Shown: piece after piece, positions 28,573 through 51,373 of the stretch
Layout of the letters: the number at the start of each line of letters is the position of its first letter
How positions within the stretch are numbered: the first letter of the stretch is position 1
DNA from: Rhodocytophaga rosea
Lineage (GTDB): Bacteria > Bacteroidota > Bacteroidia > Cytophagales > 172606-1
Reading direction: 5' to 3'
Assembly (NCBI RefSeq): GCF_010119975.1
Contig: NZ_CP048222.1
Span: 5,288,501-5,352,500, forward strand
DNA length: 64,000 bases
Notes under the pieces: generated by a model
Told to the model about the DNA's origin: nothing
Seen by the model: the letters and a program-made list of their open reading frames with translations, nothing else
The model's database searches: none
Position numbers and translations under genes: made by a program

Positions 28573-28645
28573 CGGGGTGTAGCGCAGCCTGGTAGCGTAC
28601 TTGCATGGGGTGCAAGGGTCGTGGGTTCAAATCCCGCCACCCCGA
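28573..28645 (+). tRNA. tRNA-Pro (anticodon GGG)
   Basis: The sequence folds into a standard cloverleaf: acceptor CGGGGTG/CACCCCG, D arm with AGCCTGGTA, anticodon stem CTTGC/GCAAG around the loop ATGGGGT (anticodon GGG, reading CCC), and T arm with TTCAAAT. The discriminator base is A and no CCA is encoded. It lies 84 bp after the M1 gene. Confidence 0.93.
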
Positions 28646-28648
28646 CAT

Positions 28649-33528: not shown

Positions 33529-33833
33529 GAAGGATTAGGTATATGAATGTAAAGTTTGCTTTGAATAAAGGGTTTAAGTTAAACTAAATTATTTATTAAG
33601 ACAGGAATAGTGGTTCAAAAAGTATAATTACTCACAAAAATAGAAATAGGCGGCTGGGAAGTGAATCAGCCTTTTGTGTTTTTTGAATAAAATAACTGCC
33701 TTTCTCTTTTCATATATCACACTTTACTCTGGATAGCAAATAGAATTATAGAAAATAAAAAACCGCTTAATTTCTAAAATCAAGCGGTTTTTCTTAACTT
33801 TTGACAATAGTATTTTAGCTACACTCCCACAAA
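33529..33833. other. Intergenic region, 305 bp
   Basis: AT-rich sequence holding the terminator of the five-gene cluster at 33758-33792 and the promoter region of the Gfo/Idh operon. No gene is seen. Confidence 0.6.
33758..33792 (-). terminator. Terminator of the large five-gene cluster
   Basis: An 11-bp perfect stem, AAAAACCGCTT and its complement, has a 13-nt loop; read on the minus strand it ends AAGCGGTTTTTTATTTTC. It lies 42 bp past the stop of the 582-aa gene, marking the end of the cluster. Confidence 0.82.
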
Positions 33834-35582
33834 TTACTCAGCCTGATCAAATTGTAAACCGCTGCTTTGGAGATGGCGGCCAATACTTTTCTCTCTGGAC
33901 AGCCAGGTGATAGTACGGCCATCAAACCAACGGGCTCTGCGCCAGGCTTGTTTTACAGTGATACCAGTAGTTGGAATTTCTTCTTCCTGGATGTCATAAT
34001 GGCGTTTCTCATCGGTTACACTCCGCAAAATATCAGTCCTGGGACGGATACGGGTTGGCGCAAAATCTCCGACAAAACGGGGCATATTCGCTCGGCGGAA
34101 CACAATCTGCTCATTAGCGGCATTAGGCCGTATGGGAATAAAAGGTATCCAGTGTGGAGGCACCGTACTTCCAATCTGGTAAGTGAATGGGGCACTTATA
34201 TCTGGCATAGGAGTACTAGTAGTGTTTCCGGCTAATTTCTCTAACCAGCTTTCCAGGCGTAAAGCAGCACTCTGGCCATCCATTCCTTCGCCTAGTCCAT
34301 TCGGAACCACCATTTCTACGCCCCACACTAAATTGGCCATTTCATCCCTTATAAAGTGAATTTCTTCCAGTGTATCGCTTTGTAGAAAATGATTAGTTAC
34401 CGGAGGTAGATACAACCACCCTTTAGGCGTAGGCACGGCTGGTGAAGTAATTTGAAACAGTTCCCAGTTTTCATTTTGAGGAACCGGATTGATATACGAT
34501 TGTACACCAAACACATCTGTTACCCGCATACTTCTTACCTGTGCTAGATGTCCTACTGGCAAAGTTAGGGGAGTAAGCAGCCAGTCATTACTATACAAAA
34601 GGCTAAATTCTGACAATAATAGTAGGCCAAGGTCTGTTTTACGGGCTTGCAGATTGCTGAGGTCAAGGGTACTATCTTCAAATTCCCACCACCTGGCCCG
34701 TGGCATGGAAGGAAATGAGACAGGTGTGGGAATAAATGTATTACGGTGTATGGTAATCTGGCTTGCATCCAGGCCGTCAGAAAGTGTTTGTTGTGCAATA
34801 GCTTGTTCCCACGAAAAACTATCCATATTCTGGCCATTGTACTCCGGCATGTGAAGCGTAGCGGCAGTATTGTCTGGTAAAATGGCTGAAATTGTTGCCC
34901 TGTATTCCAGCCTACCAGCATCCCAGCAGGTGTTAGTTTGCGGACCGGCAATACCTATACGATTGTTTACCCATTGTACCCATTTACTGCCTGTCTCATT
35001 CACCACAGAATCTGCCTGTGGAAGGAAATCAGAAGCTTTACGGGTTTGTAATTCTTTATAGAGCAAGGCTCCGTCTACCATCCGGCCATTGCTCAACGCA
35101 ACTACTATCTGACTGTACGGTTCATAACTATAAGCGGAGAGCTCAGAGCTGCCAGATTCATAAGTTAGGGAGGGTGCTTTAAATTGCAAAAGGGGATTTT
35201 GCCGGAATACTTCCCATGCCTGACCTTTATTGGCGTTTATCAGCATTTTTTGCCACATACGTCCGGCTTCCAGGCGAAGGGAGAGGTCAAAAGAGGGAGC
35301 AAGTTGTTCTGTTTGTGCATTGATGGGTTTTTCCTCTGCTTTGTAGGTAGAAGCCGCATTCTGGCCAGATCCCATGAAGCGTTGCAGGGGAGTACTGGTG
35401 GTAACTACATGCGTAAAGGCGGCCATACCAGCATCTTCTGCCTTAAATTCACCGAGTTGCCACTGGCGGGCTAACAGCCACAATGGATCATGAATTTCAC
35501 AGCGTAAAGCTTCGGCAATGTCATTACTGCTTGGTATCGGCCGTAATTTTTCCCATATGAGTAAGGCGCTATTATCTGGCAT
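33834..35582 (-). CDS. Cluster protein A: 582-aa conserved-type protein of unknown function
   Basis: No named family is recognised, but the protein has distinctive motifs: IHDPLWLLARQWQLGEF near residue 28, then EDAG; RARWWEFED near 290; the hydrophobic LLLLSEFSLLYSNDWLLTPLTLP near 320; RDEMANLVWGVE near 405; PHWIPFIP near 480; and a C-terminus ending SSGLQFDQ. I recall the same motifs in hypothetical proteins of other phyla that sit in similar clusters; this is from memory. There is no signal peptide or clear membrane segment, so it is cytosolic or exported by another route. It is last in the cluster, 388 bp from gene B, with a dispersed repeat between. Confidence 0.85.
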   Translation of the reverse strand: MPDNSALLIWEKLRPIPSSNDIAEALRCEIHDPLWLLARQWQLGEFKAEDAGMAAFTHVVTTSTPLQRFMGSGQNAASTYKAEEKPINAQTEQLAPSFDLSLRLEAGRMWQKMLINANKGQAWEVFRQNPLLQFKAPSLTYESGSSELSAYSYEPYSQIVVALSNGRMVDGALLYKELQTRKASDFLPQADSVVNETGSKWVQWVNNRIGIAGPQTNTCWDAGRLEYRATISAILPDNTAATLHMPEYNGQNMDSFSWEQAIAQQTLSDGLDASQITIHRNTFIPTPVSFPSMPRARWWEFEDSTLDLSNLQARKTDLGLLLLSEFSLLYSNDWLLTPLTLPVGHLAQVRSMRVTDVFGVQSYINPVPQNENWELFQITSPAVPTPKGWLYLPPVTNHFLQSDTLEEIHFIRDEMANLVWGVEMVVPNGLGEGMDGQSAALRLESWLEKLAGNTTSTPMPDISAPFTYQIGSTVPPHWIPFIPIRPNAANEQIVFRRANMPRFVGDFAPTRIRPRTDILRSVTDEKRHYDIQEEEIPTTGITVKQAWRRARWFDGRTITWLSREKSIGRHLQSSGLQFDQAE

Positions 35583-35663
35583 AATGAGGTTCAGTTTTAG
35601 GATGCGTTCAGAGATAAGTAAATTACTATATATGTATGGTTAGCTGTTATAAAGTTGAGTTCC

Positions 35664-35868
35664 TGCGCCGTCTTACTTTTCTTTTGCATGCCCAAAAGAA
35701 AAGTAACAAAAGATTCTCAAGCATGCGAATGCGAAGAGAACCAATGTAGTTGTGGCATCACCAACAAAGCCTGTTTTACGCCAGATAAAATCATCGCACA
35801 ATTCTCCGGCCTTCGCACAAGGCTAAAACCGGCCACACTGTTGCTGCACCACCCACCGCACTTTTGCT
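35664..35868. repeat. 205-bp dispersed repeat, copy 1
   Basis: The element is more than 85-90 percent identical by eye to 58281-58484, same orientation, with sharp ends (TGCGCCG... to ...ACTTTTGCT). It opens with a perfect 14-bp hairpin (TTACTTTTCTTTTG at 35673-35686 and its complement at 35693-35706, loop CATGCC). It fills the gap between cluster genes A and B. A short open frame inside (MPKRKVTKDS...) is probably not a gene. Confidence 0.85.
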
Positions 35869-35970
35869 TTGTCTAAATCTGCAAAATCATCTTAATGATA
35901 TATTTAGAACAGCTCGATTATAAGCACCAATATTTTCTTTATACTTAGTACTCACAACTTAATACTACCA

Positions 35971-38900
35971 TTACACAGGTTCTACTACCGGTGTTTGCTG
36001 GTTTTCAGGCATAAATGGCATTACTATAGCTGGCAATACCTGAGAAAGCCCTGCATGGCTGGTCCGGATATGTTCTGGTGTAACCAACCGTTTCTTTGCC
36101 ATTTCCAAGGCATCGTTAACAGCACCCAGTAAAAATTCCCAGTTCCAGTTCTCGCTTTCTACTGGTGTTACAGCCAATAGCATGGTTTGCGGAGGTTCTG
36201 TATTGGGTTGATTGTACTGAAAAGCTACACCGGTATCAATATTTTTCTCAGGAATCCACTCCGGCCATTCATCAATGATAAATCCTGAAAAAACGGTATT
36301 TGCCTGAAAAGTGGATGGTAATTCCAGCAGCAGCGATAAACTGGCTCGTTCTTCTGGTTTGGTATCTGGAGGTAGGAGGCCACCAATCCAGGGCTGTTTG
36401 TTGCCTGGGAAGAAGGGGAATTGCATCACAGCGGGTGAAGCGGATGTTTCCGTCGAATCAAGGACTTCGCTTAATAATTTAGATTGGCGGTAGGACCGCA
36501 AAGGTTTCCGGACTAAGGCCGCTTCACGTATCCATTCATCAATAACTGGTACATCTGCATTCTCAATGAGTTGCCTGTTTGTATAACAGGTATTTACTTC
36601 TGCTAGATTCTCCAAAGTTATATCCGGATAGAGGGATATGGTTTTGCCAAATAAAATATTCGCCGTTTCCTGTATAGTTTTAAATGCTGTTTCCCCATTG
36701 CCAGTGGCTGGAATCGTAGTGAGTATGGATTGAGCTTTCTGTAAACGGCTTTCCAGTTCATTGGCAATCGTTTTTGCTTTTATTAGCAGATATTTTGCCG
36801 TTTCCTGGTTTACTAGCATCATTCCTTCTGAAGTGCTAGTTTCTATGCCGTATTGCCAGGCTTTTAACAAGGCTTGTAATAATTCTTTGATGATGGGTTG
36901 TAGTGCTGTTTCTGCTTGTGCTTGTTCCAGAGCTGTTTGTAATAAAGATGCTTGCTTGCGCAGCTGTTGAATAAGATTGGGTAGGCTACTGTCAGTAGAA
37001 ATATGCTTGATAAGAGCGGTTTTTAGCCGGCTTACATCTGTTTTATCACTGGCAGCAGCCCGTTTATCAGGCAGTAAAAAATCATTTGCACTAATAGGCC
37101 TGCTTTCACTGATTATTCGACGAAGGCCTGCTACCAGACTGCTGATTTCAAATATGCTCACTTCAGACCCTGTAAAGCCACTACGGTCTTTAAAATCAAT
37201 ACTAAAACCGGGTGTATTCAATAAAATTTCTGAACCAAACTTATTTATCGCAACAGATTGTACATAAAATGCCAGTGGGCTTTGGTCTGCTTCGGTAAAT
37301 GTTCCCGGCAAAGCATACAATAGATCAATAGGTTCAATGGCTACTTCTGAAAGTTTGATTTTTTCCTGTCTTCCATCCAGCAGTTTTATAGAAACAGTAA
37401 TGCTGGCAGGTGCAGGTAACTGAAGGCTCAGCCAATGATTCAGGTCAGGAGCGAGCAACGAACGAGGACTGCCAGTTGCTGTCCATCCTGGGACATTGGC
37501 AGTGGGTAGATTTTGTTTGAACACCACACCTACCCGGTGAGTAATGGCATTTCCTTTTAGCGGCGTACGCACTACATCCGGAAGAATCACTTGTCCACCA
37601 CTATTCAAGATGCGCAATGCAGCAGCAGCTCTGTCTTTATTGCCGTTGGCCATTTGGTATACACTTTCGGTGAGCAGCAGATCACTCAGGGCATCTAAAT
37701 AATCCTCAATGGTTTGGGCAATCTCGTTGATTTTTTTGGTCGTATTGGTATCAGTTGGAGTAATGCCAGGAATGCCGCTAAGCCAGCCGGTTGGATTCGC
37801 TCTCCTGCTGTTGAGTAGTCGCAAGCCATCTATAGTGGTAAGTGGCGAAGGACTTTGTCCGTTGGATTCTGTCCGCTGGATGGGAAATGCTTTGCGAAGG
37901 TCATACAGAAACCGGTCGAGCTGCCTTTCGTGCAAGAGCCGCTCAAAATAATAGCCCAGTAACTCACCAACCGAAGCACCCTGTTGCATGCCTTCCAGTA
38001 ACTGAAGTGCCTGTCGGATACGGGGCGAATTGAGTTGGATGGCTACCAATGCCGTCTGGTTATCGGCCTGATGGTTTAAATATCCGCTTCGTAAAATGGC
38101 GGCGGCAGTCGCATGAGCAGTAGAAGGGGCATGAATAAATCCATCACTTTGTACCTGGTTGGTCGAAGTATTGGGTTCTACATGTCCGGTGACAGTATTG
38201 AGCCGGATATTGGGGGAGAATGTTTCTCCAATATAGAAAAATGCTTTTTCCCAGCTATTACCAGCCGGATCGATGCCACTCTGACGGGCGGCCTCAGAAT
38301 GTATCAGTGGAATGGCAGCTGCCTCCATGTTTTCGGGTACTGCCGGAATATATTCAGGGGCTTCTTCTACCAGAACTATACTCGGATTCAGATTGGGTTT
38401 TAAGCCCAGTAGATACCCAAATGCGCCTAGGTATAAACCTTGCGGTTTTGCTTTTCGCTGTTTGAGCAACCGTTGATATACAATGCCTTCTATCCATGCA
38501 TCCAGCCGGTGACTGCAAAGGTCTAAATGTTCGGTAAATAAGTGTTCTATGCGTTTAACAGGTACCTGACTGAAATATTCTGCTGCTTTTGTAACATCAC
38601 TTAACACAGGAACCTGCGCCTGTTGCCTATTGGCATTCAGCCAGTCGGATAGGGGAGTAGTACCAGTGGTTGGAGTAGGTGTAGCAAAATAGAGGCGGCG
38701 GTCTACTTCTAACTCAAAAGGTGTAGTCAACCCATATCTCTCAATAATAGGCTGGTAGCCCTGATGCAGCTTATTATCGGCAGCTAAAGCAAGCGGATTG
38801 ATCGCTAATTTGCCTGTATGTAAGTGTTGCGCTTCAAAGTCTTTTACTTTCAGCAGCCACAAACCTGGATTGGTTTCTGCCAGATGAATGCCGTCTTCCA

Positions 38901-41145
38901 GATAAGCCCGCAATACGGCCTGCCTGGCCAGAACCGCAAACACAGATAGGGTAGCGTTGCTGAGTTCAGGTCCATCACCGGCTGGAATATTGGTTAGGTT
39001 GTGGTTCCAGATGTCAGTCATGTTCCCTTGTGAGAGAAATTCCAGATAATTCCAGGACTTGCCAGCAATACGCTCTAATAATTGATTTTCTGTGATGGGA
39101 AATTTATCTAGTAGTATGCGGCGCACCTTCTGACTGGTGGTACTATAGGCACCGACAATGGAAGAAAAAAAAGCTGTATTGAGTCCCAGGCTGGCGAGCT
39201 GCCGGCTGAAGAGGGCAGGGCTAAAATCCGGATCTGAGTTTAGTTCAGTAGGTAATTCCGGGTTTGGCTGCGCTGCCTGCATGACCTGCTGAAGTTGGAT
39301 ACCTGCCAGCCACTGCTTTTGTAAAGCTGCTGCCGAAGGACTCACATTCAACATCTCAAAAAACTGGTCATCCAGTCCTGAGCCGCCTACATTGTTTACT
39401 GTTCTTACCTGTTGTGTGAAGGTTTGCCACTGAGTATTGAGTTTGGATAAGAAAAGTGTCCATACCTGTGAAGCAAAGCTATCTTCTTCGCTTAGATTCT
39501 CGGTAGGATATAGCCAGTGGGCATAGGAAGAAACCGGAATAATGCCATAAGGTTGCCGGTTTACCCGCAACACAGGTAAAGTGCCCCGGCCGCTTACATG
39601 GTTTATGAAAAAATGGCGGGCTTGCTCCCTGGAAGCTTCGTCCAGATCTGGTGTGAAAAATTGTAATAAATAATATCCCCAGGTAGCCGGCCAAAGCATC
39701 TGGTTCATCAACATGGCTTCACTCAGGTCGGTGCAGTGGCCATTTGGAATGCGAAAATCAGGTTTAAGACCTAAGGCTTTTTTTAACCTGGATTCATCCG
39801 TTTCAAGAGAGTTTGCCGGAGCTGGCAACCATTGGGATTGAAAATACAGATTCGCATCTTGTTCCCGCTTGTTAAATGCTGATTTCTGGCCTTCGAAGTT
39901 ATTGGTAGGAGTGCCTTTAGGTAAAATTCCAAGTCCTTCTTCCTTAAATAAATGATTCTCCAGTAATTCATTTATCAAACGGGCACCTTCAACATCATCT
40001 ACCGAGAGTTTTGCACCTACCACCAGGATTTTATCCACGCCCTCGCTGAATTCAGGATTGGCATTCAGATCAATCCGGATGCCTAAACCTAATTTTTCAG
40101 CCTCCTCAAAATCATGTATCCAGCGCAGATATTCTGGAGTCTGGATATTGGTACCCTTTTGAGTCATACCTGAATCTTTGTTTGAATCGAAGGGATCATG
40201 GGTAGGATCAAGGCCAAGCACCAGAGGTTCAGGAATGAGATTACCTGTAAATTCTTTGAATGTGCCATCTTTATATAGGCGCACGGTAAATCGTTCCGGT
40301 AGCAAACGGGTGATAGGAGGGTAGGTATAAGAACCATCTTTCAAGGAACGCTGGGCAGCAAATTGTGGTGGATTGGGTAAAGGTTTATCCGGAGAGAAAT
40401 TAGTGGGCAGTGTATTACGGATGATCCAGGCGGCTCTGGCAGGCATTACTGTAGTGGAAAGCTGGAACCAGGCTTCTTTTACATCGGTGCCAGTACCAAT
40501 ATTTTTCCAGAACTGTGTTCCGGCTTCCCATTCCCCTGGTTGTAAAAACCGTTCCAGTCCTTCCAGAAATACATCGTCAGGATAAATGCGGATGCGCAGT
40601 TCCCGGTTGTCAATTTTCCGCTTGATGAAGTTGCCGCTTTTAGGTTTCCACGTCTCAAAGGGTTGGAGGAATGATACATCTGAGGTGTGAAAAGGAGGTG
40701 CCATATAGGTCGTTACTCCTTCTTCATCTTGGTCAAAACCCATTATCCGGAACCGGTCGCCACCCAAACCCAGGAGTGCAAACATATCTACGGTATCCGC
40801 TACGGTAAGCTTGCGAACTACATGCTGTACAGTCAGGTACCTTGCTTCCAGACGGACGGGAAGGAGCAGAAATGGTACATCGGATGGTATTTGTGTCAAT
40901 AATGCCTGGGGTGCTCCTTCACTGTCTAACTGGCTGATGGCGGCTTGTAGCTCAGTAAGTGCCTGATTGCTGGCGGTCTGTTTTTGCTTTATATCTTCCG
41001 GTGTGGGCATTGGGGTAGTACCGGTGGCAATCCCTTGCTGGGAAAGCGACCATTCTTGCAATGCCTGATAATAAGCCAGCTCAGCTTTGTTGTAGGCATC
41101 CCTTTTCTGCCTGATTTGCTCCTGAAGTGTTTTAATATTTTCCAT
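35971..41145 (-). CDS. Cluster protein B: 1724-aa protein of unknown function
   Basis: The N-terminus is a coiled coil (about 1-85). Then come FLLLPVRLEARY near 105, ELRIRIYPDDVFLE near 195, RAAWIIRNTLPTN near 245, PERFTVRLYKDG near 290, the motif GTPTNNF near 415, and a long mostly helical/beta body. The C-terminus has DEWPEWIP, TGVAFQYNQP and LLLAVTPVESENW, then helical ending LPAIVMPFMP. There is no signal peptide. I recall the same motifs in large hypothetical proteins clustered with A- and C-like genes elsewhere (memory, unchecked). Gene C's stop is 3 nt upstream of its ATG (TAA-TCT-ATG), so translation is coupled. Confidence 0.88.
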   Translation of the reverse strand: MENIKTLQEQIRQKRDAYNKAELAYYQALQEWSLSQQGIATGTTPMPTPEDIKQKQTASNQALTELQAAISQLDSEGAPQALLTQIPSDVPFLLLPVRLEARYLTVQHVVRKLTVADTVDMFALLGLGGDRFRIMGFDQDEEGVTTYMAPPFHTSDVSFLQPFETWKPKSGNFIKRKIDNRELRIRIYPDDVFLEGLERFLQPGEWEAGTQFWKNIGTGTDVKEAWFQLSTTVMPARAAWIIRNTLPTNFSPDKPLPNPPQFAAQRSLKDGSYTYPPITRLLPERFTVRLYKDGTFKEFTGNLIPEPLVLGLDPTHDPFDSNKDSGMTQKGTNIQTPEYLRWIHDFEEAEKLGLGIRIDLNANPEFSEGVDKILVVGAKLSVDDVEGARLINELLENHLFKEEGLGILPKGTPTNNFEGQKSAFNKREQDANLYFQSQWLPAPANSLETDESRLKKALGLKPDFRIPNGHCTDLSEAMLMNQMLWPATWGYYLLQFFTPDLDEASREQARHFFINHVSGRGTLPVLRVNRQPYGIIPVSSYAHWLYPTENLSEEDSFASQVWTLFLSKLNTQWQTFTQQVRTVNNVGGSGLDDQFFEMLNVSPSAAALQKQWLAGIQLQQVMQAAQPNPELPTELNSDPDFSPALFSRQLASLGLNTAFFSSIVGAYSTTSQKVRRILLDKFPITENQLLERIAGKSWNYLEFLSQGNMTDIWNHNLTNIPAGDGPELSNATLSVFAVLARQAVLRAYLEDGIHLAETNPGLWLLKVKDFEAQHLHTGKLAINPLALAADNKLHQGYQPIIERYGLTTPFELEVDRRLYFATPTPTTGTTPLSDWLNANRQQAQVPVLSDVTKAAEYFSQVPVKRIEHLFTEHLDLCSHRLDAWIEGIVYQRLLKQRKAKPQGLYLGAFGYLLGLKPNLNPSIVLVEEAPEYIPAVPENMEAAAIPLIHSEAARQSGIDPAGNSWEKAFFYIGETFSPNIRLNTVTGHVEPNTSTNQVQSDGFIHAPSTAHATAAAILRSGYLNHQADNQTALVAIQLNSPRIRQALQLLEGMQQGASVGELLGYYFERLLHERQLDRFLYDLRKAFPIQRTESNGQSPSPLTTIDGLRLLNSRRANPTGWLSGIPGITPTDTNTTKKINEIAQTIEDYLDALSDLLLTESVYQMANGNKDRAAAALRILNSGGQVILPDVVRTPLKGNAITHRVGVVFKQNLPTANVPGWTATGSPRSLLAPDLNHWLSLQLPAPASITVSIKLLDGRQEKIKLSEVAIEPIDLLYALPGTFTEADQSPLAFYVQSVAINKFGSEILLNTPGFSIDFKDRSGFTGSEVSIFEISSLVAGLRRIISESRPISANDFLLPDKRAAASDKTDVSRLKTALIKHISTDSSLPNLIQQLRKQASLLQTALEQAQAETALQPIIKELLQALLKAWQYGIETSTSEGMMLVNQETAKYLLIKAKTIANELESRLQKAQSILTTIPATGNGETAFKTIQETANILFGKTISLYPDITLENLAEVNTCYTNRQLIENADVPVIDEWIREAALVRKPLRSYRQSKLLSEVLDSTETSASPAVMQFPFFPGNKQPWIGGLLPPDTKPEERASLSLLLELPSTFQANTVFSGFIIDEWPEWIPEKNIDTGVAFQYNQPNTEPPQTMLLAVTPVESENWNWEFLLGAVNDALEMAKKRLVTPEHIRTSHAGLSQVLPAIVMPFMPENQQTPVVEPV

Positions 41146-41148
41146 AGA

Positions 41149-43965
41149 TTAGAGTTTTACCAGGCGGGAAGCAGGTACAAATAACATAAATGGTTTCTGA
41201 TACAACATAGCTGCCACCCGGTCGGAACGTTCGCTAGTGTATCTGGGTAGGGATTTAAATCCTGCGGAAGAAGCATTGATACAGCTATTCTCAGGCACTT
41301 CATTACTGATGGCTGGCCAGGAAGGATCGGCTGTGCTTTCGTCTATATCCATTCCGAAATGGATGTCGCCAGCCCGTTCTTTCAACACAAAAAACCATCC
41401 TGGTGAGCTGGGGTTTCCAATGGCCTCTTCTACAGATAAATTAAAGCCAATCAGTCGGATATCTGGTTCGATTTGAGCGGTAAACAGAGGATATTGTATA
41501 GCAGTATCGCCGGTACCGGCTTGCTTCATGAATACTTCTGTATTGGGATATTTTTTCAGTAGATCACCTCTTACCAGAATGACAATCTTTTCTTTCACTT
41601 TCCCATCAGGCGGATGCGAACCCAAAGCTGAAACTCCCCAGGTAGAAATTGCCTTGATATCTTTAAAAGCTTCCGGGTTATTTTCAGCCTCCTCAGTATC
41701 CCGTACATCCCAGAACTGACGGAAAGCGGTAGTATTCAAAGGAGCCGGAAATTCCCGCCACAGGTATTCCCGGGAGAGTTCATGGTTTAAACCCACCATA
41801 TACGACTCAATAAAAGAGGGATTGGTTTCTAACATAGTCACCCGGTTGACGGGAATAGAATCGATTCCGGGCAGAATATAATCGGTGGAACGTTCGGCTA
41901 AAGGCCGGTACATCGGTTCAGGAAATTGCGGAAAATGAGAGAAAGCAGCCGCACTGGTTCGCGAAAAAGTAGACGTAGCTGGCAAAATGCTTTGCAAACG
42001 GGCAGTAATAGTAAGGGCTGGGTTGATCTGGCTGGCTATGCTGTTATACAACATATCAGAAGGGGGTATCGGAGCCGTCATAATGCTGGTGAATTGTACA
42101 TAGGGCATCAGTGCACTTAAAGCCTGTTTACATGCCGCAATGCCAACAAATCCCTGTGCTTTCAGGAAATTATTTTTAAGCAGAAAGATAGGTCTGATCC
42201 TGCGGCCTCTGATGGGTTCCAGGGTCTCGTTTGGCAAACCCTCCAGAAAAGATACGATATTGCCCAGGCTGTTATGCAATACATTTTTAGGCGGTGCCAC
42301 CGTTAGCGCTATTTCAAAGAAACGCCCGGTGTTCACCTGTTTATTCAGCCGGCGAACTAAAGGACCTCCTGGCCTGGTGATTTTGGTAAAAGAGCGGGAA
42401 TAAGCCGAAGGCACAGGTTTCTGCTGAAGGGTAGCCGCAAAACTTTTATTATCCACCACCAGGGATGCATGCAATGGGTTCATAAAGGCCAGCGTGCGGA
42501 AAGTATTTTCCGTAACATTTTGCGTAGACTGGGCTTGCAGCAGCGGCTCAATCCGTTTTTGAAACAAACGCTGGCTTACTTCCAGCGAATAATGCCACCG
42601 TTTTACTACTTGCTGGGTTCCCTGCGATTGACTGAGCTGGTCCCAGGCCCGGTCCATATAGGTTTCCTGGTCTTTTTGCACCACCGCTGTACCCTGGCTT
42701 GCCGCCACCCGGAAGGCTGGATTTAAGTTTAACTGGGTATACCAATCCTGGTTAGCCGCCGGATTAACTTTAGGAGGATTATTTCTGTAAAAACTTCCAT
42801 ACAAAGGCGGTACGATGATGGGATCATCTTCAATATTGCTGTCTTCGAAAAAGGGATTTTGCGGCGATGGTGCTGGTGGATTTGATGCATCCTGAACCAC
42901 AGGTACACCCAGATTCAGCAGATCAGATATATTTTTGACAAAAGTTTTATCCTCTGCTTCAGAGCTATCTGTAATAGGGACATCTGCCGTTTGCTTCAAA
43001 GGTTTCAACGCACTCTGCAGAGGTATAGCGCCTGTGGTGCCGGTATACTGAAGTCCCCAACCAGGCTTACGAATATCCATCATCCGGCTATTTTGAGCCT
43101 TCAATAAGGCCTGTTCCTCTGCTTCACTTAAAGGAGCCAGCCGGCTTGCCAGTGATTCAAAATCTCCGGCGGTACTAGTCACAAATTCCCATTCATAATA
43201 CACCGGAAATACCTTTGATCCGCTTTCTGATGCTGCCCAGGAAGGTGCTGCATTGGCAATCGCCTGAATGGTTTCTATATCTTTTCCCAATCCTGCTAAT
43301 CGTCCTTTTTCAAATGCCGGAATCAGGAAAGCAGTGTACCTGGTTCCGGGTTGCAGCCTCCGGGGACATACCAATCTGGAACAGCCCATATTAGGATTCT
43401 GATCGAGCATAGCATCTACCATTTGCCGTTTCTCGGCTGGAGTATTACCTTCTACCGCAAAATTCAGATGGGTATGTGCCCAGGCCCAGGTAGTATCCGG
43501 CGCAGGAAAAGCTGTTTGTAGTGCAGCGCTGTTAATTTCAATAGCAGGCAGACTTGTTTCCGTGGGACTATGCCGCACAAATTCCTCCTCACGGAGGGCG
43601 GTCAGCCATAACCAGGGAGACAGTTTTCCGGTGGCTGGCAAAAAAGGAGAATAACGCCAGGGAAAATCTTCATCATAAAATTCAATGGCACACAAAAAAT
43701 TATCCTCAAAATCCCGTACACCTGCCCTGGGGATGGTCCGGACAATGGCTCTCCGGTCAATGCCTGAAATATCACCCGGGCCGTATACCTGTACTTTCCT
43801 TTCTACCAAGGCTGGCGTTTCTCCGTCTCCAATGGCTTGTAGGTTCAGCGACACGCTAAGCGGGGCTTTTTCAGCTATACTGGTGGTATCAGCCAGATTA
43901 ATAATTCCTCTGCGGAGCCAGGGTAGAAATGAATAATTTGCCGGGGCATTTGGATCAAGAGGCAT
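41149..43965 (-). CDS. Cluster protein C: 938-aa protein of unknown function
   Basis: The N-terminus has FLPWLRRGI near residue 12, then VYGPGDISGIDRRAIVRTIPRAGV (about 60-85), FEDNFLCAIEFYDEDFPWRYSP and LSPWLWLTALREEEF. Near the C-terminus are REFPAPL, GWFFVLKERAGDIHFGMD, and RVAAMLYQKPFMLFVPASRL. No named family is known to me; the motif set recurs in similar clusters I recall from other phyla. There is no signal peptide or membrane segment. It is coupled to gene B by a 3-nt gap. The 594-bp gap upstream to gene D carries a related hairpin element. Confidence 0.87.
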   Translation of the reverse strand: MPLDPNAPANYSFLPWLRRGIINLADTTSIAEKAPLSVSLNLQAIGDGETPALVERKVQVYGPGDISGIDRRAIVRTIPRAGVRDFEDNFLCAIEFYDEDFPWRYSPFLPATGKLSPWLWLTALREEEFVRHSPTETSLPAIEINSAALQTAFPAPDTTWAWAHTHLNFAVEGNTPAEKRQMVDAMLDQNPNMGCSRLVCPRRLQPGTRYTAFLIPAFEKGRLAGLGKDIETIQAIANAAPSWAASESGSKVFPVYYEWEFVTSTAGDFESLASRLAPLSEAEEQALLKAQNSRMMDIRKPGWGLQYTGTTGAIPLQSALKPLKQTADVPITDSSEAEDKTFVKNISDLLNLGVPVVQDASNPPAPSPQNPFFEDSNIEDDPIIVPPLYGSFYRNNPPKVNPAANQDWYTQLNLNPAFRVAASQGTAVVQKDQETYMDRAWDQLSQSQGTQQVVKRWHYSLEVSQRLFQKRIEPLLQAQSTQNVTENTFRTLAFMNPLHASLVVDNKSFAATLQQKPVPSAYSRSFTKITRPGGPLVRRLNKQVNTGRFFEIALTVAPPKNVLHNSLGNIVSFLEGLPNETLEPIRGRRIRPIFLLKNNFLKAQGFVGIAACKQALSALMPYVQFTSIMTAPIPPSDMLYNSIASQINPALTITARLQSILPATSTFSRTSAAAFSHFPQFPEPMYRPLAERSTDYILPGIDSIPVNRVTMLETNPSFIESYMVGLNHELSREYLWREFPAPLNTTAFRQFWDVRDTEEAENNPEAFKDIKAISTWGVSALGSHPPDGKVKEKIVILVRGDLLKKYPNTEVFMKQAGTGDTAIQYPLFTAQIEPDIRLIGFNLSVEEAIGNPSSPGWFFVLKERAGDIHFGMDIDESTADPSWPAISNEVPENSCINASSAGFKSLPRYTSERSDRVAAMLYQKPFMLFVPASRLVKL

Positions 43966-44559
43966 AGCGATTCAGTGGTTAATGAAACATTCAATCAGTT
44001 TATTCTAACCTGATTGTTTCTAAATTTTGACAATCAAATTGTTTTTTGTTCACTGGCTTGTATTTTAATTCCCTTACGCCGTCCTTACTTTCTTTGTCAT
44101 TGCTACAAAGAAAGTAAGCAAAGAAAAATCTAGAGAAAACAATGCTTCCTCGCTCAGGGCCTACGCATTGCCCGCTGTTTTTTCGGGCCATCACGCATAG
44201 AATTTTTGTTTTATTATCTATTAAAAATGATCTAACTTAATTCTGATCTACATCTCCTTACCCTGAAATAAAAGACAAAATGCACATTTCCGATAACAGC
44301 TTTTGCAGGAGCCACCTTATACAACCTTTGGGTCAGCACTGGCCTTGTGCGGGTTGTATAGAGGGGCGGATGTAAAAGCGGGGCCTCTCCGGCCCTGGAG
44401 GAGAAATGTCTCTGCTCAAAACAATCATTCTAGTAGACATCCTAATTTTATATTAGTATTGGAATAATTTAAAATAGGTAATACATGTTTATCTCAAAAT
44501 AAATGACTGACATACAGTAAATTACTAATAACGAACAACCAGCAACTAACAACGATTTG
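43966..44559. other. Intergenic region, 594 bp, carrying hairpin element and palindromes
   Basis: The region between cluster genes C and D. It holds the hairpin element at 44085-44117, a longer GC-richer stretch (about 44280-44410) with an inverted pair TATACAACC (44318-44326) and GGTTGTATA (44352-44360), and a repeated AT-rich motif at 44525-44555. No gene is seen. Confidence 0.65.
44085..44117. repeat. Hairpin related to the 205-bp repeat family
   Basis: TTACTTTCTTTGT and its exact complement have a 7-nt loop, preceded by CGCCGTCC and followed by a K/A-rich stretch. The same layout (CGCCGTC, then a TTACTTT hairpin, then AAAGA) begins the repeats at 35664 and 58281, so this looks like a diverged member of one family. 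Confidence 0.7.
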
Positions 44560-47500
44560 TTAAGGCACCGCTTCTACCAGAGGTAATACACTCAGGACTT
44601 TTTGCGGATTTTTTTGCTTTATATCGGCTAGTTGTTGCCAGGCCAACGCTGCACTGGTGACAGCTGGTATTTCGGTTGCTTTCAGCGTTCCTTGTTCGGC
44701 AATCACATATTTTTCTGCGATGGTTTGTAAGGCTACAGGTTTCGCCTTGGGTGCTTGCCCTAATGCTGAATTGGCCAGGGTACTGTTTCGCAGGCTGTGT
44801 GCAAAACTCCGGATGGTTTCCAACCCTTTTACATCTGGTAAAGGAGTTGTAGGCTCTTCACCCAATGTTTTGGTTTCATAAGTAAAAGGCTGTGTAGTTA
44901 ACTCGTCATCGAACATTACAGCATCTAATCCTTCAAAGCTGAGGCCGGAATCAAACAGTTCATATGATGGCGTACTCAATTGCAGTTCTTCACTCATGTC
45001 AATAAACTGAGCCGAAGCGAAATGATTTTTTACCTTACCGGCAGGTATGTCATTGTTATTTGTATCCTTGAGTGCGAGCCTGAAGGTATTCGCACCTTGT
45101 GGCTGGCGGCCACTGAATTTATCAACCCGTACTTCCAGGGGCACTGTTGTCTGGCGGACAGATAAGAGTTCATTGGGATGCAGCGTAAGCAGGGTAGAAT
45201 CAGCCGCTTTTTTCAAATGCTTCCGCAAGGTTACAGACAGATGAGTTTTGCCTGTGGCCCGTTCCCAGTTGGCATCATTGGATAGATCATCGGCCAGTAA
45301 GGGCAGAATGCGTACTTTCTCCAGACGGGCTTCATCTTCTTCACCCCAGGTTTCGTTGAGAGATACCGTTTTGCTGAATATCCAGACTTTCAGTTTCAGG
45401 CTGCCTTCAATATGCCAGGGGGAAGGTCCGCTGAACGTGCCATTTACTTCAATGGAAGCAAAATCATAGCCTTTCCAGGATGCTGCCAGCAGGAAGTGTA
45501 CATCTGTTTCGAATCGGAATGGGCTGAGCTGGAACAAAGCATCAAAGGATAGTTCTCCCCGGATGCCGACACCCCATTTTTTGAACACAAACAAACCAGC
45601 TACACCAAACTGAATGGTATTGGAAGTAACAGCTAAATAGCAAGACACCGTAATGCTAGGATTGCCAGAACGCAGGATGATCTGGAGCCTTCGCATTTTT
45701 GCCGGTAATTGCAGGGCAGGCGGCTGAAACCTGGGATGAAACCCGCCAATGGTAATGGCAAAATCCGGGTTATCACCATATTTAATGCGCAGGGCCATAT
45801 CTCCCTCCAGCTTCATGCCCAGCAATTTGGACTGGAATAAAGCCGCATCCAGGCTGATGAATTTTTTATCAAAATCTATGGCGGCCACAAAATTGACTTG
45901 TAACTGCAAGGCTTTAATTTCCTTACCGGCCACTTTCCTGGTTATTTCCGAACGGATTATGCCAATCAGCGCCAGTCGTACAGGTTCCGGGAATTCGATG
46001 ATCAAGCCCAGTTCGATGGTAATAATACTTTTCGGACCCCAGGCCAGTTGAGCCATCAACCCAAACGTATATTGCCCATCGGCAGCAGGGAAGAACTGGT
46101 TGATTTTGGTGAGGATGGTATATACATTTTTCAGCGGATCTTTGGGAAAAAGAATATCATCAATGTCATTCTTTTGAATCCCTTCCTGTATTTTTTGTAA
46201 TTCTATCCGACGGTGAATACCTATTAACCCGCCTACGCCGGTGAGCGAAAATCCCAATCCCAGTTGAATGGCTGGAAATTCAGCGCTGATGATTAAAAGA
46301 AATGAGTAACCGGGTTGCCCACTGGGAAGCCGGGTTTGAATAATTCCTAAGGCTTTAACATTGATTTTATTTTTGATGCTCAGTTGAGCAACCCCGAAAT
46401 ATTCGCCTTTATCTTCATCTATGTACAGATAGCCACCGCCTGTTACCACTTTGGCATTGATCTCGATGCCTACGCCGTTAGGTGGTTTAAAATCAAAGTC
46501 TGCATCAAAAATACCCAGATTTCCTGCTTCGTCTTTCGGTGGGCTTTTCAGCAACAAGCGCATGCCTATCTTATCAAGTTCGATATTTACCGGACCTAAT
46601 TCAGCACGGCCCGCCACCGACGCATAGAGCATCCACTGGTTGGCATCGGTTATTTTGCGGAAACCCAGTTGCAAAGAGGGCAAGGAGAATTTGCTGACTT
46701 TTTTGTTGAGCGGAATTACAATTTCTCCGCCACCGCCTCCTTCCAGGTAAAAGCCCCGTTCATTGAAATATCCTGCTGCCAGGTCAAACAGAACAGCAAT
46801 GCCTTTTTCAGGGAGTATTTTTTGCAGAAAGGAATCTCCATCGCCGGGTAATAAATAAAATCCCGATTGGCTCAGGCTGGCTTTAATATCTGCTTTTTTC
46901 GACTGATTGCTGATATCGAGTAAAGCCCGGAGATCAATTTTTCCTAACTCAAGCCGGGTGCCTTCTTCCGTACCTATTACGTAAGCCGGATTATTTTCTT
47001 TATCGTTCTCAGGTTCGGTCTTACCCTTGTGTGCCGCAATCTCTACCAACAAATTACCAGATACACCTGGAGGGAGGTCTACGCCATCCGGACCAAAACT
47101 GAAACTATCCAGGCCGCCACTCAGGTTAAATGTCCATTGCCATTTTCCAAACTCCCGGTTAAATTGTTTGTCTGTCCGGTTATCATCGTCGAGGTAAAAA
47201 ATCTGGGGAGATACGATAATATTCTGGTCCTGTCTTCTTAAGCTAAGCGCCAGCTCAACATTTTTGCCAACCGGAAACCAGGTGGTTAAAGTTTGAGAGA
47301 ATTCCTGTAGTTTATCCTCAGTTAAGGCAATCGCATCGCTATGCCGGTAGCCATAAAAAGCATTCAGATACAGACTTAAGAGTAAATCCCGTAACCTGAT
47401 TAATAGTTTGTCATCAGGTGGTACCGGGCCAGCCATCCGCAGCAAAGAGCCGGAAGAAGTATCGTTTTTAAAATAATGCTCTTTTAAGGCAGCTACCGGA

Positions 47501-48096
47501 TCACGGAAAAAAGCATCCAGGCCATCTTTATTAAACTGTATGCCCCGGTAAGGATAGCGGATGATACGTCCCGAAGTGTCTTTTTCTGGTTCGTTGACTT
47601 CATTTTCGCTTCCTACACTCACCCAGTTTAACAAGCGATACAGTTGAATAGACGATGGAACAAGAATGGCATGTCCTCTCAGAATTACCTGTTGCATGAC
47701 ATGCAGCAAGAGTTCACTTTTGTCGATATCGATTCCATTTTCTGCGCCTGCCAGCTCGAATACAGCCTTGCATTTTTTGTATTCATCAAACACCTGTTTG
47801 AGTAGTTTAAAACCTGCTTTTACTGCACTCCAGGATTTCCATTTGGTAGGCCATTGCTCCCGCACCGATTCATAGACCGTTCTGGTGCTTCTGGTTACTT
47901 CCACTACTTTGTCGAAAGTGGTTACGCCTTCGGTATTGGGTTTATCCATATCCCCCAGGTCATACCCAGACATATACACAAATTCCATGATCAGCTTTTC
48001 CGACGACAGTAATCCGATCACCAGGTCCAGAAAAACCAGAAAGTCTTCATTGGCGGACCGGTTTTCGATAAAAGTATCTTTCTCTTGTTCTGCCAT
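44560..48096 (-). CDS. Cluster protein D: DUF6603-like protein, ~1178 aa
   Basis: I chose the ATG at 48096; the longer frame at 48138 overlaps gene E. One nucleotide separates gene E's TAA from this ATG (TAA-c-ATG). Residues 1-300 are helical. From about 300 the protein is beta-rich, with a DUF6603-type core: GGGYLYIDEDKGEYFGVAQL, PAIQLGLGFSLTGVGGLIGIHR near 615-640, and ILFPKDPLKNVYTIL followed by TFGLMAQLAWGPKSIITIELGLIIE. The C-terminal ~200 residues are mixed. No signal peptide is seen. DUF6603 is of unknown function; the assignment is by recall. Confidence 0.85.
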   Translation of the reverse strand: MAEQEKDTFIENRSANEDFLVFLDLVIGLLSSEKLIMEFVYMSGYDLGDMDKPNTEGVTTFDKVVEVTRSTRTVYESVREQWPTKWKSWSAVKAGFKLLKQVFDEYKKCKAVFELAGAENGIDIDKSELLLHVMQQVILRGHAILVPSSIQLYRLLNWVSVGSENEVNEPEKDTSGRIIRYPYRGIQFNKDGLDAFFRDPVAALKEHYFKNDTSSGSLLRMAGPVPPDDKLLIRLRDLLLSLYLNAFYGYRHSDAIALTEDKLQEFSQTLTTWFPVGKNVELALSLRRQDQNIIVSPQIFYLDDDNRTDKQFNREFGKWQWTFNLSGGLDSFSFGPDGVDLPPGVSGNLLVEIAAHKGKTEPENDKENNPAYVIGTEEGTRLELGKIDLRALLDISNQSKKADIKASLSQSGFYLLPGDGDSFLQKILPEKGIAVLFDLAAGYFNERGFYLEGGGGGEIVIPLNKKVSKFSLPSLQLGFRKITDANQWMLYASVAGRAELGPVNIELDKIGMRLLLKSPPKDEAGNLGIFDADFDFKPPNGVGIEINAKVVTGGGYLYIDEDKGEYFGVAQLSIKNKINVKALGIIQTRLPSGQPGYSFLLIISAEFPAIQLGLGFSLTGVGGLIGIHRRIELQKIQEGIQKNDIDDILFPKDPLKNVYTILTKINQFFPAADGQYTFGLMAQLAWGPKSIITIELGLIIEFPEPVRLALIGIIRSEITRKVAGKEIKALQLQVNFVAAIDFDKKFISLDAALFQSKLLGMKLEGDMALRIKYGDNPDFAITIGGFHPRFQPPALQLPAKMRRLQIILRSGNPSITVSCYLAVTSNTIQFGVAGLFVFKKWGVGIRGELSFDALFQLSPFRFETDVHFLLAASWKGYDFASIEVNGTFSGPSPWHIEGSLKLKVWIFSKTVSLNETWGEEDEARLEKVRILPLLADDLSNDANWERATGKTHLSVTLRKHLKKAADSTLLTLHPNELLSVRQTTVPLEVRVDKFSGRQPQGANTFRLALKDTNNNDIPAGKVKNHFASAQFIDMSEELQLSTPSYELFDSGLSFEGLDAVMFDDELTTQPFTYETKTLGEEPTTPLPDVKGLETIRSFAHSLRNSTLANSALGQAPKAKPVALQTIAEKYVIAEQGTLKATEIPAVTSAALAWQQLADIKQKNPQKVLSVLPLVEAVP

Positions 48097-48097
48097 G

Positions 48098-51000
48098 TTA
48101 CAAAGTATTTGGGGTGGGCTTTGTGTATTGAAGATCATCGGCGGCCATGGCTACCTTGTATCTGGTGAGGGCATGAGGCGTTAAACCGCTGGTGCTAGTT
48201 TGTTCTTTTAGGGGTACTTCTGCCACCACCCATATGGTTTGGCTTACCGTTCTCCGGATTTTTACTGTACTATTCTGTACATGGGCTTGTGCCTGCGAAT
48301 CAGCTTTACCCCGTTTTAGCTGGCTGCAGGTGAGTTCAGTATCATTGCCTGCCTGTGTTTTTGTTTCCAGCACATATATGATTTCCTGGTCGATGATAGC
48401 GAAAAAAGGCGCTTGTGGAAACGTTTTACCCTGTGCCAGTATGATGGTAAACGATTCTGCCTTGGTATCCAGGGCTTGTACCAGTTTACCTTCGCCTTCC
48501 CAGTCGATGGTGATAGAGGCAAAATTGCTGCGGCGGATAATTTCAGAAGAAGGCGCTTGCTGCCGGGCAAAATGGAAATGAGAAATGGTATTAAAATTCT
48601 CTACTTTTTTTTCTTTGGTTCCCCGGATAAAATCAATGCGGTACATCCATTCCGGCTTTGGAATTTTTACTTCCGGATGAATTTTATGATTGGGAAGTAG
48701 AATGGGATTTTGGGTGATCAGGCCGGGTTTGTAATTGGGAAACCAGCGGGTCCGTAATACAATCTCGTCTTTTTTAGCTTTGTCCAGCGTTTGAGGGGCT
48801 TTGGCATATCCCACTACAACTTCTGGCTCCGGCAAACGTTGGGTATTGCTTCCCAGATCGGTAAATTCATAGCCCAGCAGATCGAGTTTTAGTTTTTTCC
48901 AGGCACTGGCTTCATTTTTCATTCCACTGGCGGTTAGGTGGGCGACAACCATTTCATGCGCTTTGGTTTGCTCGGTTTCGAAAGGTTTATCGGCCCAATA
49001 CGCCAGGCGGCCTGCATAAGTAAAATGCACATCTCCGGATAAGATCACCACCCGGTTTTCGCTTTTTGCTTCCGGCTGTGTTTTGGCAGTCCGTACTGCC
49101 AGGAGGCTCAAAAATGTTTCGAATAGCTTCGAACTCACTTCCCAGGAATCGGCCTGGTCGGGATCATAAGCGGCCATTTCCCAGCGGTTTCCCGAATAAC
49201 CGGTAAAATAATGCGCCAGTGGCAAAGCCACACCACTCAGATAATTGCGGAACAGCGGAATGGTGACCACATTGCAGGGAGAAATAACAAACGTGATTTC
49301 TTTGGGTATATCGCTGAAAGGGGGCGGCAGTACAACCGGTTCTGGCATCTGCTCTTTCAAAGATTTGGCACTGATGTGTTCGGCTGCCCCATACAAAGAA
49401 CCTGGGAAACTGCGGAAGGTACGGGCATCGAGCACCAGCACTTCATATTTGGGATGACTTACCTGGTAATGCCAGCTGAGCGGCTGAGTAAAAATTTCCG
49501 GGAAAGTATCTCCTGAACCAATGCTGCGGTATTTGGCGGCCTGTATTTTATCCGGAATTTTGAGGAGGTTGGCAATGATCTTTTCATTGGCTTCGTCACT
49601 ATAATTGTTGCCAATCCAGGCAGACAAGGCATTGAGTAATTTTTTTCCGGCACTTTCACCTGTTTCAAAACGCTCTGGTGTATTGCCCCAGGCCTGAAAA
49701 ACCGCATACGCAGCCAGACCATTCTGAAGTACCCGACGTCCCATAGGTTTGCTATACACCCGGTGTACCCATTCCCGCGTCATATGCCAGTCGTCTGTTA
49801 CCTCATGGTCGTCGAACATCATGTAGGTGGCAATATTGGCCAGGACTCTTCTCACTTTTTTCAGTTCGGAAGCAAAAATTACCAGGTTCATCATTTCCGT
49901 AAAGTCACGGATTACCATCCGGAAACGCTTTAGTTCATAAGCTAATTCTACGTAGGCTTTCTTTTGTGCCTGGCTAACCTCTTCATCTGATAATTTCTTA
50001 ATATACCGGCTTTCAATGGAAGAAATCTTGCTGATGCCGCTTTCCAGTTTCTGCAACAGGCTATCGTCATCCTCATTTTTAGCAGCCATGGAATGTTTCA
50101 CCGCCCATTTTTTGGAAGCTTCCGCCCGGAAAAACGAAGGCCATAATACATCTGACCAGTTGAGCAGGTACAAGCCAAAAAAGTCTGACAAGGAAAACAG
50201 ATGAAACCGGGAAGTAGGCGTAAACCCGCACAGGTCATGAATATAGTCTGGCGTATCCAGGTTGTCGGTGAGTTCAGGCGGATCTAAGGTAGTTTGTGTA
50301 TATTCTTTGAGCAGGTCAATAAAGCTTTTGCGTTGATTATTGATGATAAATTCCTTTACTTTATGCATGTGCCCTCTTTCCCCCGGAATGATCTCTGCCG
50401 GACAAACATCGGCTTCGCCATCATCTTTGCTCCGCATTTTTTCAGGGGATTTGTAGCCCCCATTAGCTTCTTTTCCACTCATCAATGTATTGCCTACATC
50501 AATATAGAGGTGTTCTAATACTTCGTTGGCTTCATCGGCATAGATCTGGTCGCCACTGAGATATAGCTGCTGCGGACGGTTGGTTTTCCAGGTTTGTTGC
50601 AACAGGGTATCTAAGGCTGGCAGCGCATCGTATGCATCATTGGTCATATTGCGGCAGGAACTATGGATGAGGTGAACTTTATTGAGATCCAGGGAAGGCA
50701 GCTGGAAAGAAGGTAATTTTTCATCTGGATAAGTGATTTCTGCCGGTATGTTTGCTGTACTGAGTACTCCCTGTGCTAACAAATCCTGACCACCAATAGT
50801 AAGGGTGTAGAAATAGGTATTTCCGTATTGCAGTTGTTTCTCTGGAGCAATAGGTTTAGCTGTAACGGCTGCTATATGCAGATTGGTACCTAGTTTAACC
50901 GTTTGCAAATTGCCAGTTAAAATGGTGCTGCCTGCCACATTATTAGCATCTTCCACTACAGATAAGACTACTTCTTTGGCTTCTTTCAAGGCTACCCAAA

Positions 51001-51373
51001 CCGTAACGGCTCCAGGTTCCGCCTTCCGAACCATAGGTCCGCTGAGAATCAAGGGTAATTCGGCAATATTTAAAGGCTGGACCGATTGCTGTAATATCTG
51101 GCTAATGCCTGTAATGGTATTGTTTGTATCTTTTGTGACCAGCGGAGAGTCCGAGCAAATAGAGAAAATATGTTGAATGACTTCCTTCAACCCTTTCTTC
51201 TCCTCATCTATTCTTTTTTTCTCTTTATCGGATAGATTGCCGGATTCAATCGCAGAAAACTTTTGCTGCAGACTTTCATGCAGGTTGCGCTGTTCCGCTT
51301 CAGCAATTTTATCATTCGCAAAACCGGTGTTGAGAAGTGTTTCCAGGTAGCTGATATATCTGCTGTATTTCAT
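48098..51373 (-). CDS. Cluster protein E: PhoD-like metallophosphatase/phosphodiesterase
   Basis: In this 1091-aa protein a helical N-terminal stretch (1-100) and a beta domain (ILSGPMVRKAEPGAVTVWVAL) precede a PhoD/calcineurin-like core: HSSCRNM near 235, LSGDQIYADE near 268, MMFDDHEVTDDW near 517, and LSGDVHFTYAGRLAYW near 778. These supply the metal-binding Asp, Asn/His residues. The C-terminal ~250 residues are beta-rich with no known domain. There is no Tat or Sec signal, unlike secreted PhoD. The substrate is unknown. It is the first gene of the cluster; the 588 bp upstream probably hold its promoter. Confidence 0.87.
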   Translation of the reverse strand: MKYSRYISYLETLLNTGFANDKIAEAEQRNLHESLQQKFSAIESGNLSDKEKKRIDEEKKGLKEVIQHIFSICSDSPLVTKDTNNTITGISQILQQSVQPLNIAELPLILSGPMVRKAEPGAVTVWVALKEAKEVVLSVVEDANNVAGSTILTGNLQTVKLGTNLHIAAVTAKPIAPEKQLQYGNTYFYTLTIGGQDLLAQGVLSTANIPAEITYPDEKLPSFQLPSLDLNKVHLIHSSCRNMTNDAYDALPALDTLLQQTWKTNRPQQLYLSGDQIYADEANEVLEHLYIDVGNTLMSGKEANGGYKSPEKMRSKDDGEADVCPAEIIPGERGHMHKVKEFIINNQRKSFIDLLKEYTQTTLDPPELTDNLDTPDYIHDLCGFTPTSRFHLFSLSDFFGLYLLNWSDVLWPSFFRAEASKKWAVKHSMAAKNEDDDSLLQKLESGISKISSIESRYIKKLSDEEVSQAQKKAYVELAYELKRFRMVIRDFTEMMNLVIFASELKKVRRVLANIATYMMFDDHEVTDDWHMTREWVHRVYSKPMGRRVLQNGLAAYAVFQAWGNTPERFETGESAGKKLLNALSAWIGNNYSDEANEKIIANLLKIPDKIQAAKYRSIGSGDTFPEIFTQPLSWHYQVSHPKYEVLVLDARTFRSFPGSLYGAAEHISAKSLKEQMPEPVVLPPPFSDIPKEITFVISPCNVVTIPLFRNYLSGVALPLAHYFTGYSGNRWEMAAYDPDQADSWEVSSKLFETFLSLLAVRTAKTQPEAKSENRVVILSGDVHFTYAGRLAYWADKPFETEQTKAHEMVVAHLTASGMKNEASAWKKLKLDLLGYEFTDLGSNTQRLPEPEVVVGYAKAPQTLDKAKKDEIVLRTRWFPNYKPGLITQNPILLPNHKIHPEVKIPKPEWMYRIDFIRGTKEKKVENFNTISHFHFARQQAPSSEIIRRSNFASITIDWEGEGKLVQALDTKAESFTIILAQGKTFPQAPFFAIIDQEIIYVLETKTQAGNDTELTCSQLKRGKADSQAQAHVQNSTVKIRRTVSQTIWVVAEVPLKEQTSTSGLTPHALTRYKVAMAADDLQYTKPTPNTL

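Follow-up and report, generated by a model that had tools for sequence, protein, structure and literature searches.

The five-gene cluster of Rhodocytophaga rosea

A stretch of 64,000 nucleotides from the Bacteroidota bacterium Rhodocytophaga rosea (contig NZ_CP048222.1, positions 5,288,501 to 5,352,500 of the forward strand; hereafter the window) contains a cluster of five large minus-strand genes, here termed A to E and transcribed in the order E-D-C-B-A. A preliminary description, made from the sequence alone, had proposed that the five products form a conserved system. Comparison with related loci supports this for A to D, which are a conserved unit across bacterial phyla and archaea, but not for E, whose place directly upstream of D is an interchangeable enzyme slot.

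The open reading frames confirm the five genes. E (48098..51373, minus strand) encodes a PhoD-like phosphatase/phosphodiesterase of 1091 residues and occupies the slot. D (44560..48138, minus strand), a DUF6603 protein, has 1192 residues as an open reading frame. A second ATG lies 14 codons in, at 48096, and would abut the stop codon of E (last base 48098), so that D probably starts there and a length of 1178 residues is probably right. The core proteins C (41149..43965, minus strand, 938 residues), B (35971..41145, minus strand, 1724 residues) and A (33834..35582, minus strand, 582 residues), the last of the series, belong to unnamed families. The two near-abutting junctions reported earlier are B/C (3 bp) and D/E, while A and B are 388 bp apart and C and D 594 bp. 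No open reading frame of at least 120 residues was found in the C-D gap (43966-44559); in many relatives C and D touch or overlap, unlike in the window.

Located 40 bp after A is a hairpin of 17 pairs with a T tail (33757..33793, minus strand), which had been described as a terminator. The same scan gave 21 terminator-like sites across the region, compared with 22.7 expected in shuffled sequences; what backs this hairpin is its length and position, not the number of sites. The G+C content of the cluster is approximately 0.44-0.48, versus approximately 0.39-0.44 across most of the window.

Protein families

D matches DUF6603 (PF20248) with 398.4 bits (cut-off 27) over positions 2-501 of the 502 in the profile, and is a clear member of this family, to which A, B, C and E do not belong. 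E scores 38.1 bits against the PhoD family (PF09423; cut-off 27), and a motif scan found GDQIY (residue 274), DDHE (521) and GDVH (780) kept, which we take to be the PhoD active-site motifs. E differs from PhoD-like phosphatases in its length of 1091 residues, in its interchangeable position and in having no obvious signal peptide; secreted PhoD enzymes carry a Tat signal. As anticipated in the preliminary description, D and E are the only two proteins that fit a family, and neither Pfam nor NCBIfam contains one that A, B or C match over cut-off. Pfam scans of their homologues, one by one, gave single-member matches only: three families among 51 homologues of A, seven among 28 of B and one stray match among 49 of C. 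These scans indicate that A, B and C are, by their sequences, three large families that are nameless in the libraries searched. The name DUF6603 covers D only and describes no function. In the full-text literature searched, in which subscription journals are mostly absent and preprints absent, there is no mention of DUF6603, PF20248 or the motif strings, and D-C-B-A is undescribed there.

The sharp motifs noticed earlier in these proteins are present, although only D32, RQWQ and E45 of HDPLWLLARQWQLGEF are near-invariant when the 14 seed sequences of A, one of them shortened, are aligned. Single-sequence searches against solved structures returned none for A, B, C, E or the N-terminal part of D from locus L020, and searches with C profiles returned none at E 5. 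The A profile retrieved only 3kdq (E 0.12) and 9u9i (E 1.3), the D profile mostly helical designed proteins aligned to its N-terminal helices (best E 6e-4), and the B profile weak rows only (best E 0.04); all were taken to reflect composition. A suspected likeness of the C-terminal 105 residues of E to a phage tail domain was dropped after tblastn against phages gave nothing at E 1.

Distribution and gene order of the D-C-B-A unit

A C-profile scan of a collection in which each species has a single genome started from 493 candidate loci and confirmed 484 of them; because exact peptide patterns seed the scan, this number is a lower bound. The best 80 of the 484 were examined as related loci, and the locus counts given here favour closer relatives because only these were kept. 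Open reading frames were called by a simple script, and starts in GC-rich genomes are unsure. The 80 loci fall into 11 phyla, one of them archaeal, in agreement with the earlier suggestion that similar motif sets occur in proteins of other phyla.

In each of the 80 loci the matched genes share a strand and follow the order (E)-D-C-B-A in the direction of transcription. D-C-B-A is complete in 65 of the loci, 17 of these with a PhoD-type E ahead, and 12 of the other 15 are truncated at the end of a contig. B is split into three frames in L024, while in L052 B and A are fused in one frame of 2168 residues. The order is kept in the 14 seed loci, of which L018 is truncated at its start while two others, L020 and L021, stop within A. 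Conservation of the gene order across the loci excludes chance. Among 296 Bacteroidota genomes, A is present in six; the same six have a strong C, two more a weak C, and D exceeds its cut-off in 12 genomes, including all six carriers of A. An actinobacterial family was sampled with 200 genomes: 21 have D, 14 have A, and every genome with A also has D. Each of the 16 copies of A is encoded on the strand of a D gene, 7.8-11.3 kb downstream of it.

Trees were compared over 61 rows (60 of the 80 loci and the window), in which each of A to D is one frame. The tree distances of A, C and D correlate, with Spearman coefficients of 0.89, 0.71 and 0.75 (0 of 500 permutations as high), a result that shared ancestry alone would also give. 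The joint occurrence of the genes, the B-A fusion in L052 and the correlated trees make it likely that the four proteins form one physical machine. The conserved machine proposed in the preliminary description is thus likely in its A-D part, whereas a particle, the other form proposed there, is conjecture. The phosphodiesterase assigned to it as a subunit is interchangeable.

Additional genes occur inside the unit. Between C and B, nine loci, mostly from Nitrospirota, carry a gene of 269-345 residues (L053, L055, L058, L059, L061, L063, L066, L074 and L086); the one scanned, from L053, gave weak coiled-coil-type Pfam matches only. An extra gene between D and C is often found in Actinomycetota (L044, L047, L050, L067, L068, L076 and L089), in some cases on the same strand (L050, with kelch repeats) and in others on the opposite strand (L047, no Pfam match).

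The other six D-bearing Bacteroidota genomes contain seven loci (L103-L109) with a second architecture, in which a shorter protein comes after D', matching the C profile in five of seven loci, and a different large protein replaces B in five of seven. The comparison of C and C' by hhalign (probability 96.5 and E 8.8e-10 over approximately 200 columns at the N-terminus) shows that the two are related at the sequence level, via the N-terminal third of C; for B and B', no relation was seen by hhalign (probability 0.1). The slot genes of this architecture include metallo-beta-lactamase folds (L103, L107) and DUF4135 (L109). At the position of A, L103 encodes a protein with an S74 tail-fibre chaperone domain over cut-off; S74 matches just below cut-off were obtained in L099 and L107. 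Tail Collar genes lie near L107 (by Pfam) and in L116 (by pattern only). Lectin, FG-GAP, peptidoglycan-binding and lamin tail domains are found in single members or neighbours of the loci.

The C gene is present in 4 of 59 relatives, and tblastn with C found it on 13 plasmid records (Streptomyces, Nocardia, Gemmatirosa, Rhizobium, Paraburkholderia and four haloarchaea); the D-C-B-A unit thus extends to haloarchaeal plasmids. The C of the window shares 48% identity with that of Pollutibacter soli and 47% with that of a Bacteroidota bin, but only 33% with that of Rhodocytophaga aerolata (L035), whose slot holds not a PhoD gene but a c0-type gene (see below) with a trypsin-like motif. This closer similarity to P. 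soli and the different slot of R. aerolata suggest horizontal movement of the cluster. A viral origin was rejected, with C found at no locus in viral contigs. The lone "phage" record matching B (MT835531.1; H14/L018), an unannotated stool sequence marked UNVERIFIED, holds C, B and A with a piece of D at its start and probably represents a cellular contig. Within the window, the wider region around the cluster is flanked by a tRNA-Pro gene (28573-28646) and by an open reading frame resembling, by eye, a DDE transposase (55292-55900), a possible sign of mobility.

The interchangeable enzyme slot

The upstream sequence extends for at least 600 bp at 70 D copies, and 58 of these are preceded by a same-strand gene of more than 200 residues; 49 of the 58 genes overlap D or lie within 20 bp of it (overlaps of up to 400 bp were allowed). 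The PhoD type occupies the slot in 18 of the 80 related loci and in 2 of the 14 seed loci, and at other loci unrelated enzymes occupy it. E is hence not a fixed subunit and not part of the core, and a fixed five-gene system that includes it was rejected on this comparison.

Slot families were defined as BLAST clusters, with Pfam identities taken from representatives only. Three kinds of peptidase occur: subtilases (L019, L048), a trypsin-like protease (L015) and M64 peptidases (L031 over cut-off, L044 under it). Other slots contain a phospholipase D (L026), a galactose-oxidase-like protein (L041), a patatin (L095) or DUF2515 (L045), and in L100 the slot gene is a tyrosinase with a galactose-oxidase-like gene before it. 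Simple motif scans recovered HExxH in nine of the ten M64-type proteins and one or more HKD motifs in all five of the phospholipase D type. Of the 14 c0-type proteins, 10 have a subtilase or a trypsin motif, and of the 21 PhoD-type proteins, 15 have the full set of three PhoD motifs, from which it follows that most slot enzymes are probably active. What joins subtilases and trypsin-like proteases in the c0 family is a common C-terminal domain, approximately 100 residues long, that bears a W[HN]RxxGP motif (e.g., L019, L048, L069 and L073). This domain also stands alone in genes of 138-140 residues (L021, L030, L035) and has no Pfam match in the representatives scanned.

The enzyme type follows D better than it follows C. 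In a comparison of 45 loci with an assigned slot family, the slot type had to change 11 times over the D tree and 16 times over the C tree, compared with approximately 24 times when the labels were shuffled. These are quick FastTree trees, and single placements in them are unsure. Three Nitrospirota loci (L053, L061 and L070) contain two D genes ahead of one C-B-A, and the gene between D1 and D2 is of the c0 type, with the subtilase His and Ser motifs kept in all three. The order in L061 is phospholipase D-D1-subtilase-like-D2-C-B-A; a cut-off piece of the phospholipase D family precedes D1 in L053, and none was seen ahead of D1 in L070. The nearest neighbour of the D1 copies is the D of L086, another phospholipase D locus and likewise from Nitrospirota. 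D from L026, a phospholipase D locus of Chloroflexota, is closer to D1 than to D2.

Signal peptides and contractile systems

The presence of signal peptides was assessed by a crude hydropathy test, applied to the window and to the 26 loci below 52% GC. In the window, A, B, C and E have no N-terminal hydrophobic stretch, consistent with the earlier remark that none of the five proteins has a signal peptide. D was flagged; its most hydrophobic stretch starts at residue 33, and no classical signal peptide was seen. Signal-peptide-like N-termini were found in 0 of 23 A, 0 of 27 B, 0 of 25 C, 0 of 7 E and 3 of 26 D proteins, and in 2 of 14 other slot genes, both doubtful as slot enzymes, compared with 26 of 67 neighbouring genes. 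The slot enzymes, mostly without a signal peptide by this test, thereby differ from enzymes secreted by Sec or Tat.

An association with contractile injection genes had also been raised in the preliminary description. The window genome has its own contractile injection locus (L114; G000:C1:1092000-1111999), with the sheath identified by Pfam and spike, PAAR-like and base genes by eye; it lies approximately 4.2 Mb from the window. A sheath gene is present in 4 of 6 A carriers versus 71 of 290 other genomes in Bacteroidota (p 0.04), and in 11 of 14 versus 75 of 186 in the actinobacterial family (p 0.009), with both values uncorrected for genome size and kinship. No sheath match at E 0.001 was found in 12 of 38 and in 4 of 8 carrier genomes, which speaks against a dependence of D-C-B-A on a contractile system elsewhere in the genome. 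Because many carriers are without a sheath match and the p values are uncorrected, the sheath association was not built on and does not serve as support for the interpretation below.

Structure predictions of D and A

The AlphaFold2 model of D (43 sequences; mean pLDDT 76.5, pTM 0.52, residues 1-24 below 50) predicts a helical N-terminal part followed by a long amphipathic antiparallel beta-meander, at approximately residues 283-931. The strands are two-faced, with a mean hydropathy contrast of 3.10 versus 1.56 in shuffles (maximum 2.21 of 1000). The best Foldseek match has E 1.2e-4, with a TM score to the query of at most 0.15 among the rows listed, and the best VIA match a Z of 14.4 at an rmsd of 9.9 A over 251 residues; these matches were not accepted as homology and represent a loose likeness only.

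The model of A (51 sequences; mean pLDDT 80.0) has no fold match, the best values being a Foldseek E of 0.21, a VIA Z of 4.0 and a viral E of 0.028. The N-terminal HDPLWLLARQWQLGEF motif, with its conserved residues 30-52, lies in a low-confidence stretch of this monomer model, which would fit residues that are ordered only by a partner.

A possible modular enzyme-delivery scaffold and its alternatives

The anatomy of these loci is modular: D-C-B-A is constant, the enzyme is swapped, its type tracks D, and D may be doubled together with an enzyme gene. The best explanation that we can offer for this anatomy, tentatively and well short of confidence, is a modular enzyme-delivery scaffold. D would be a dedicated carrier for the enzyme encoded directly upstream, in the window the PhoD-like E, and C, B and A would be a common scaffold bearing the enzyme-D module; the fixed four-gene body, the interchangeable enzyme, the co-varying D and the doubled enzyme-D units all point to this division. 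All parts would be synthesised in the cytoplasm, with no classical signal peptide, and the assembly, once loaded and released by lysis or some export route, would act outside the producing cell, on envelope or extracellular substrates. An action outside the cell is favoured because the enzymes are mostly without signal peptides and several loci encode binding or tail-fibre domains.

In its way of working, such an assembly would resemble contractile injection systems, tailocins and phage tails, which are assembled in the cytosol without signal peptides and carry interchangeable effectors, and S74 or Tail Collar genes accompany some of the loci. It differs from them in that none of A to E matches a PHROG at E 0.1, whether sheath, tube, baseplate or another tail protein. 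Tc toxin and Rhs cocoon systems likewise combine giant proteins with an interchangeable enzymatic part, but no RHS or Tc family is among the Pfam matches of A to E at E 1, and the fold-search rows listed contain a single Tc chain, for A, with a Z of 3.3.

Several observations weigh against a delivery scaffold. The gene order is broken in 2 of the 80 loci: in L075 a different gene follows C, and in L030 a different frame follows B, with no A in the 1 kb of contig left. A slot gene is missing at 12 of the 70 D copies, 8 of them in Actinomycetota, and several slot proteins have no Pfam match at all. For the phospholipase D type, which has 4 rows, the D tree implies 3 changes; 23 of 500 shuffles gave a count as low, so that this is little better than chance. 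Tail-fibre domains occur in few loci only, and the searches with the A and D models returned no structural relative of a delivery particle. Finally, slot and insert genes aside, no flanking family is present in more than 6 of 94 loci; no common export, lysis or immunity gene is hence visible, with a minority of the flanking genes identified.

Given that the genes are patchily distributed (4 of 59 relatives have C, and 6 of 296 genomes have A) and that some plasmids carry them, A to D could instead be an intracellular conflict or defence system, which would sense an intruder and release the slot enzyme inside the cell, D keeping the enzyme inactive before. Proteases, patatin, phospholipase D and metallo-beta-lactamase folds, all found among the slot genes, are common anti-phage effectors too, and the subtilase of L019 matches the PADLOC subtilase and IetS models. 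The slot also holds tyrosinase, galactose-oxidase-like and PhoD enzymes, however, which to our knowledge are not usual cell-killing effectors. Pfam matched no nucleotide-sensing domain in A to D, and none of A to E matches a PADLOC model. A defence role appears unlikely.

The fold of D raises the alternative of non-classical secretion or surface display, in which the beta-meander would be a conduit or a lipid-facing sheet and C-B-A would hold the enzyme on the surface. Among the top structural likenesses of D are outer-membrane barrels, ushers and the sheet with which ApoB binds lipid, and its strongly two-faced strands would suit such a role. The likeness is loose, with an rmsd of mostly 10-13 A for the barrels, and may reflect a common arrangement only. 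A classical signal peptide, as outer-membrane beta-barrels have, was not seen in D, although the crude test flagged it. Moreover, D-C-B-A is present in Actinomycetota, Bacillota and archaea, which are without the kind of outer membrane that hosts such barrels, and we regard surface display as quite improbable. Least probable, and by us given little credit, is a large cytosolic enzyme complex of polymer or secondary metabolism with A to D as scaffolding or substrate-binding subunits: polymer modification would be within reach of phosphatase, lipase, tyrosinase and galactose-oxidase-like enzymes alike, but the three kinds of peptidase in the slot and the lack of a recurrent flanking family argue against it.

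Significance

Relatives of C are carried by 484 loci, and the 80 examined hold approximately 13 kb of conserved coding sequence, with four giant proteins that are nameless beyond one DUF. It is conceivable, if on balance doubtful, that they represent a new programmable protein machine of Bacteria and Archaea for which no sequence link to phage tails or to type VI, Tc or Rhs systems was detected. DUF6603 would then be a cargo-specific adaptor, a swap of the enzyme-D module would re-arm C-B-A, and one body might carry two enzymes. If the delivery scaffold is real, it would provide a modular route by which proteases, lipases and oxidases reach a target without signal peptides, in both prokaryotic domains, and the enzyme slot makes this function testable.

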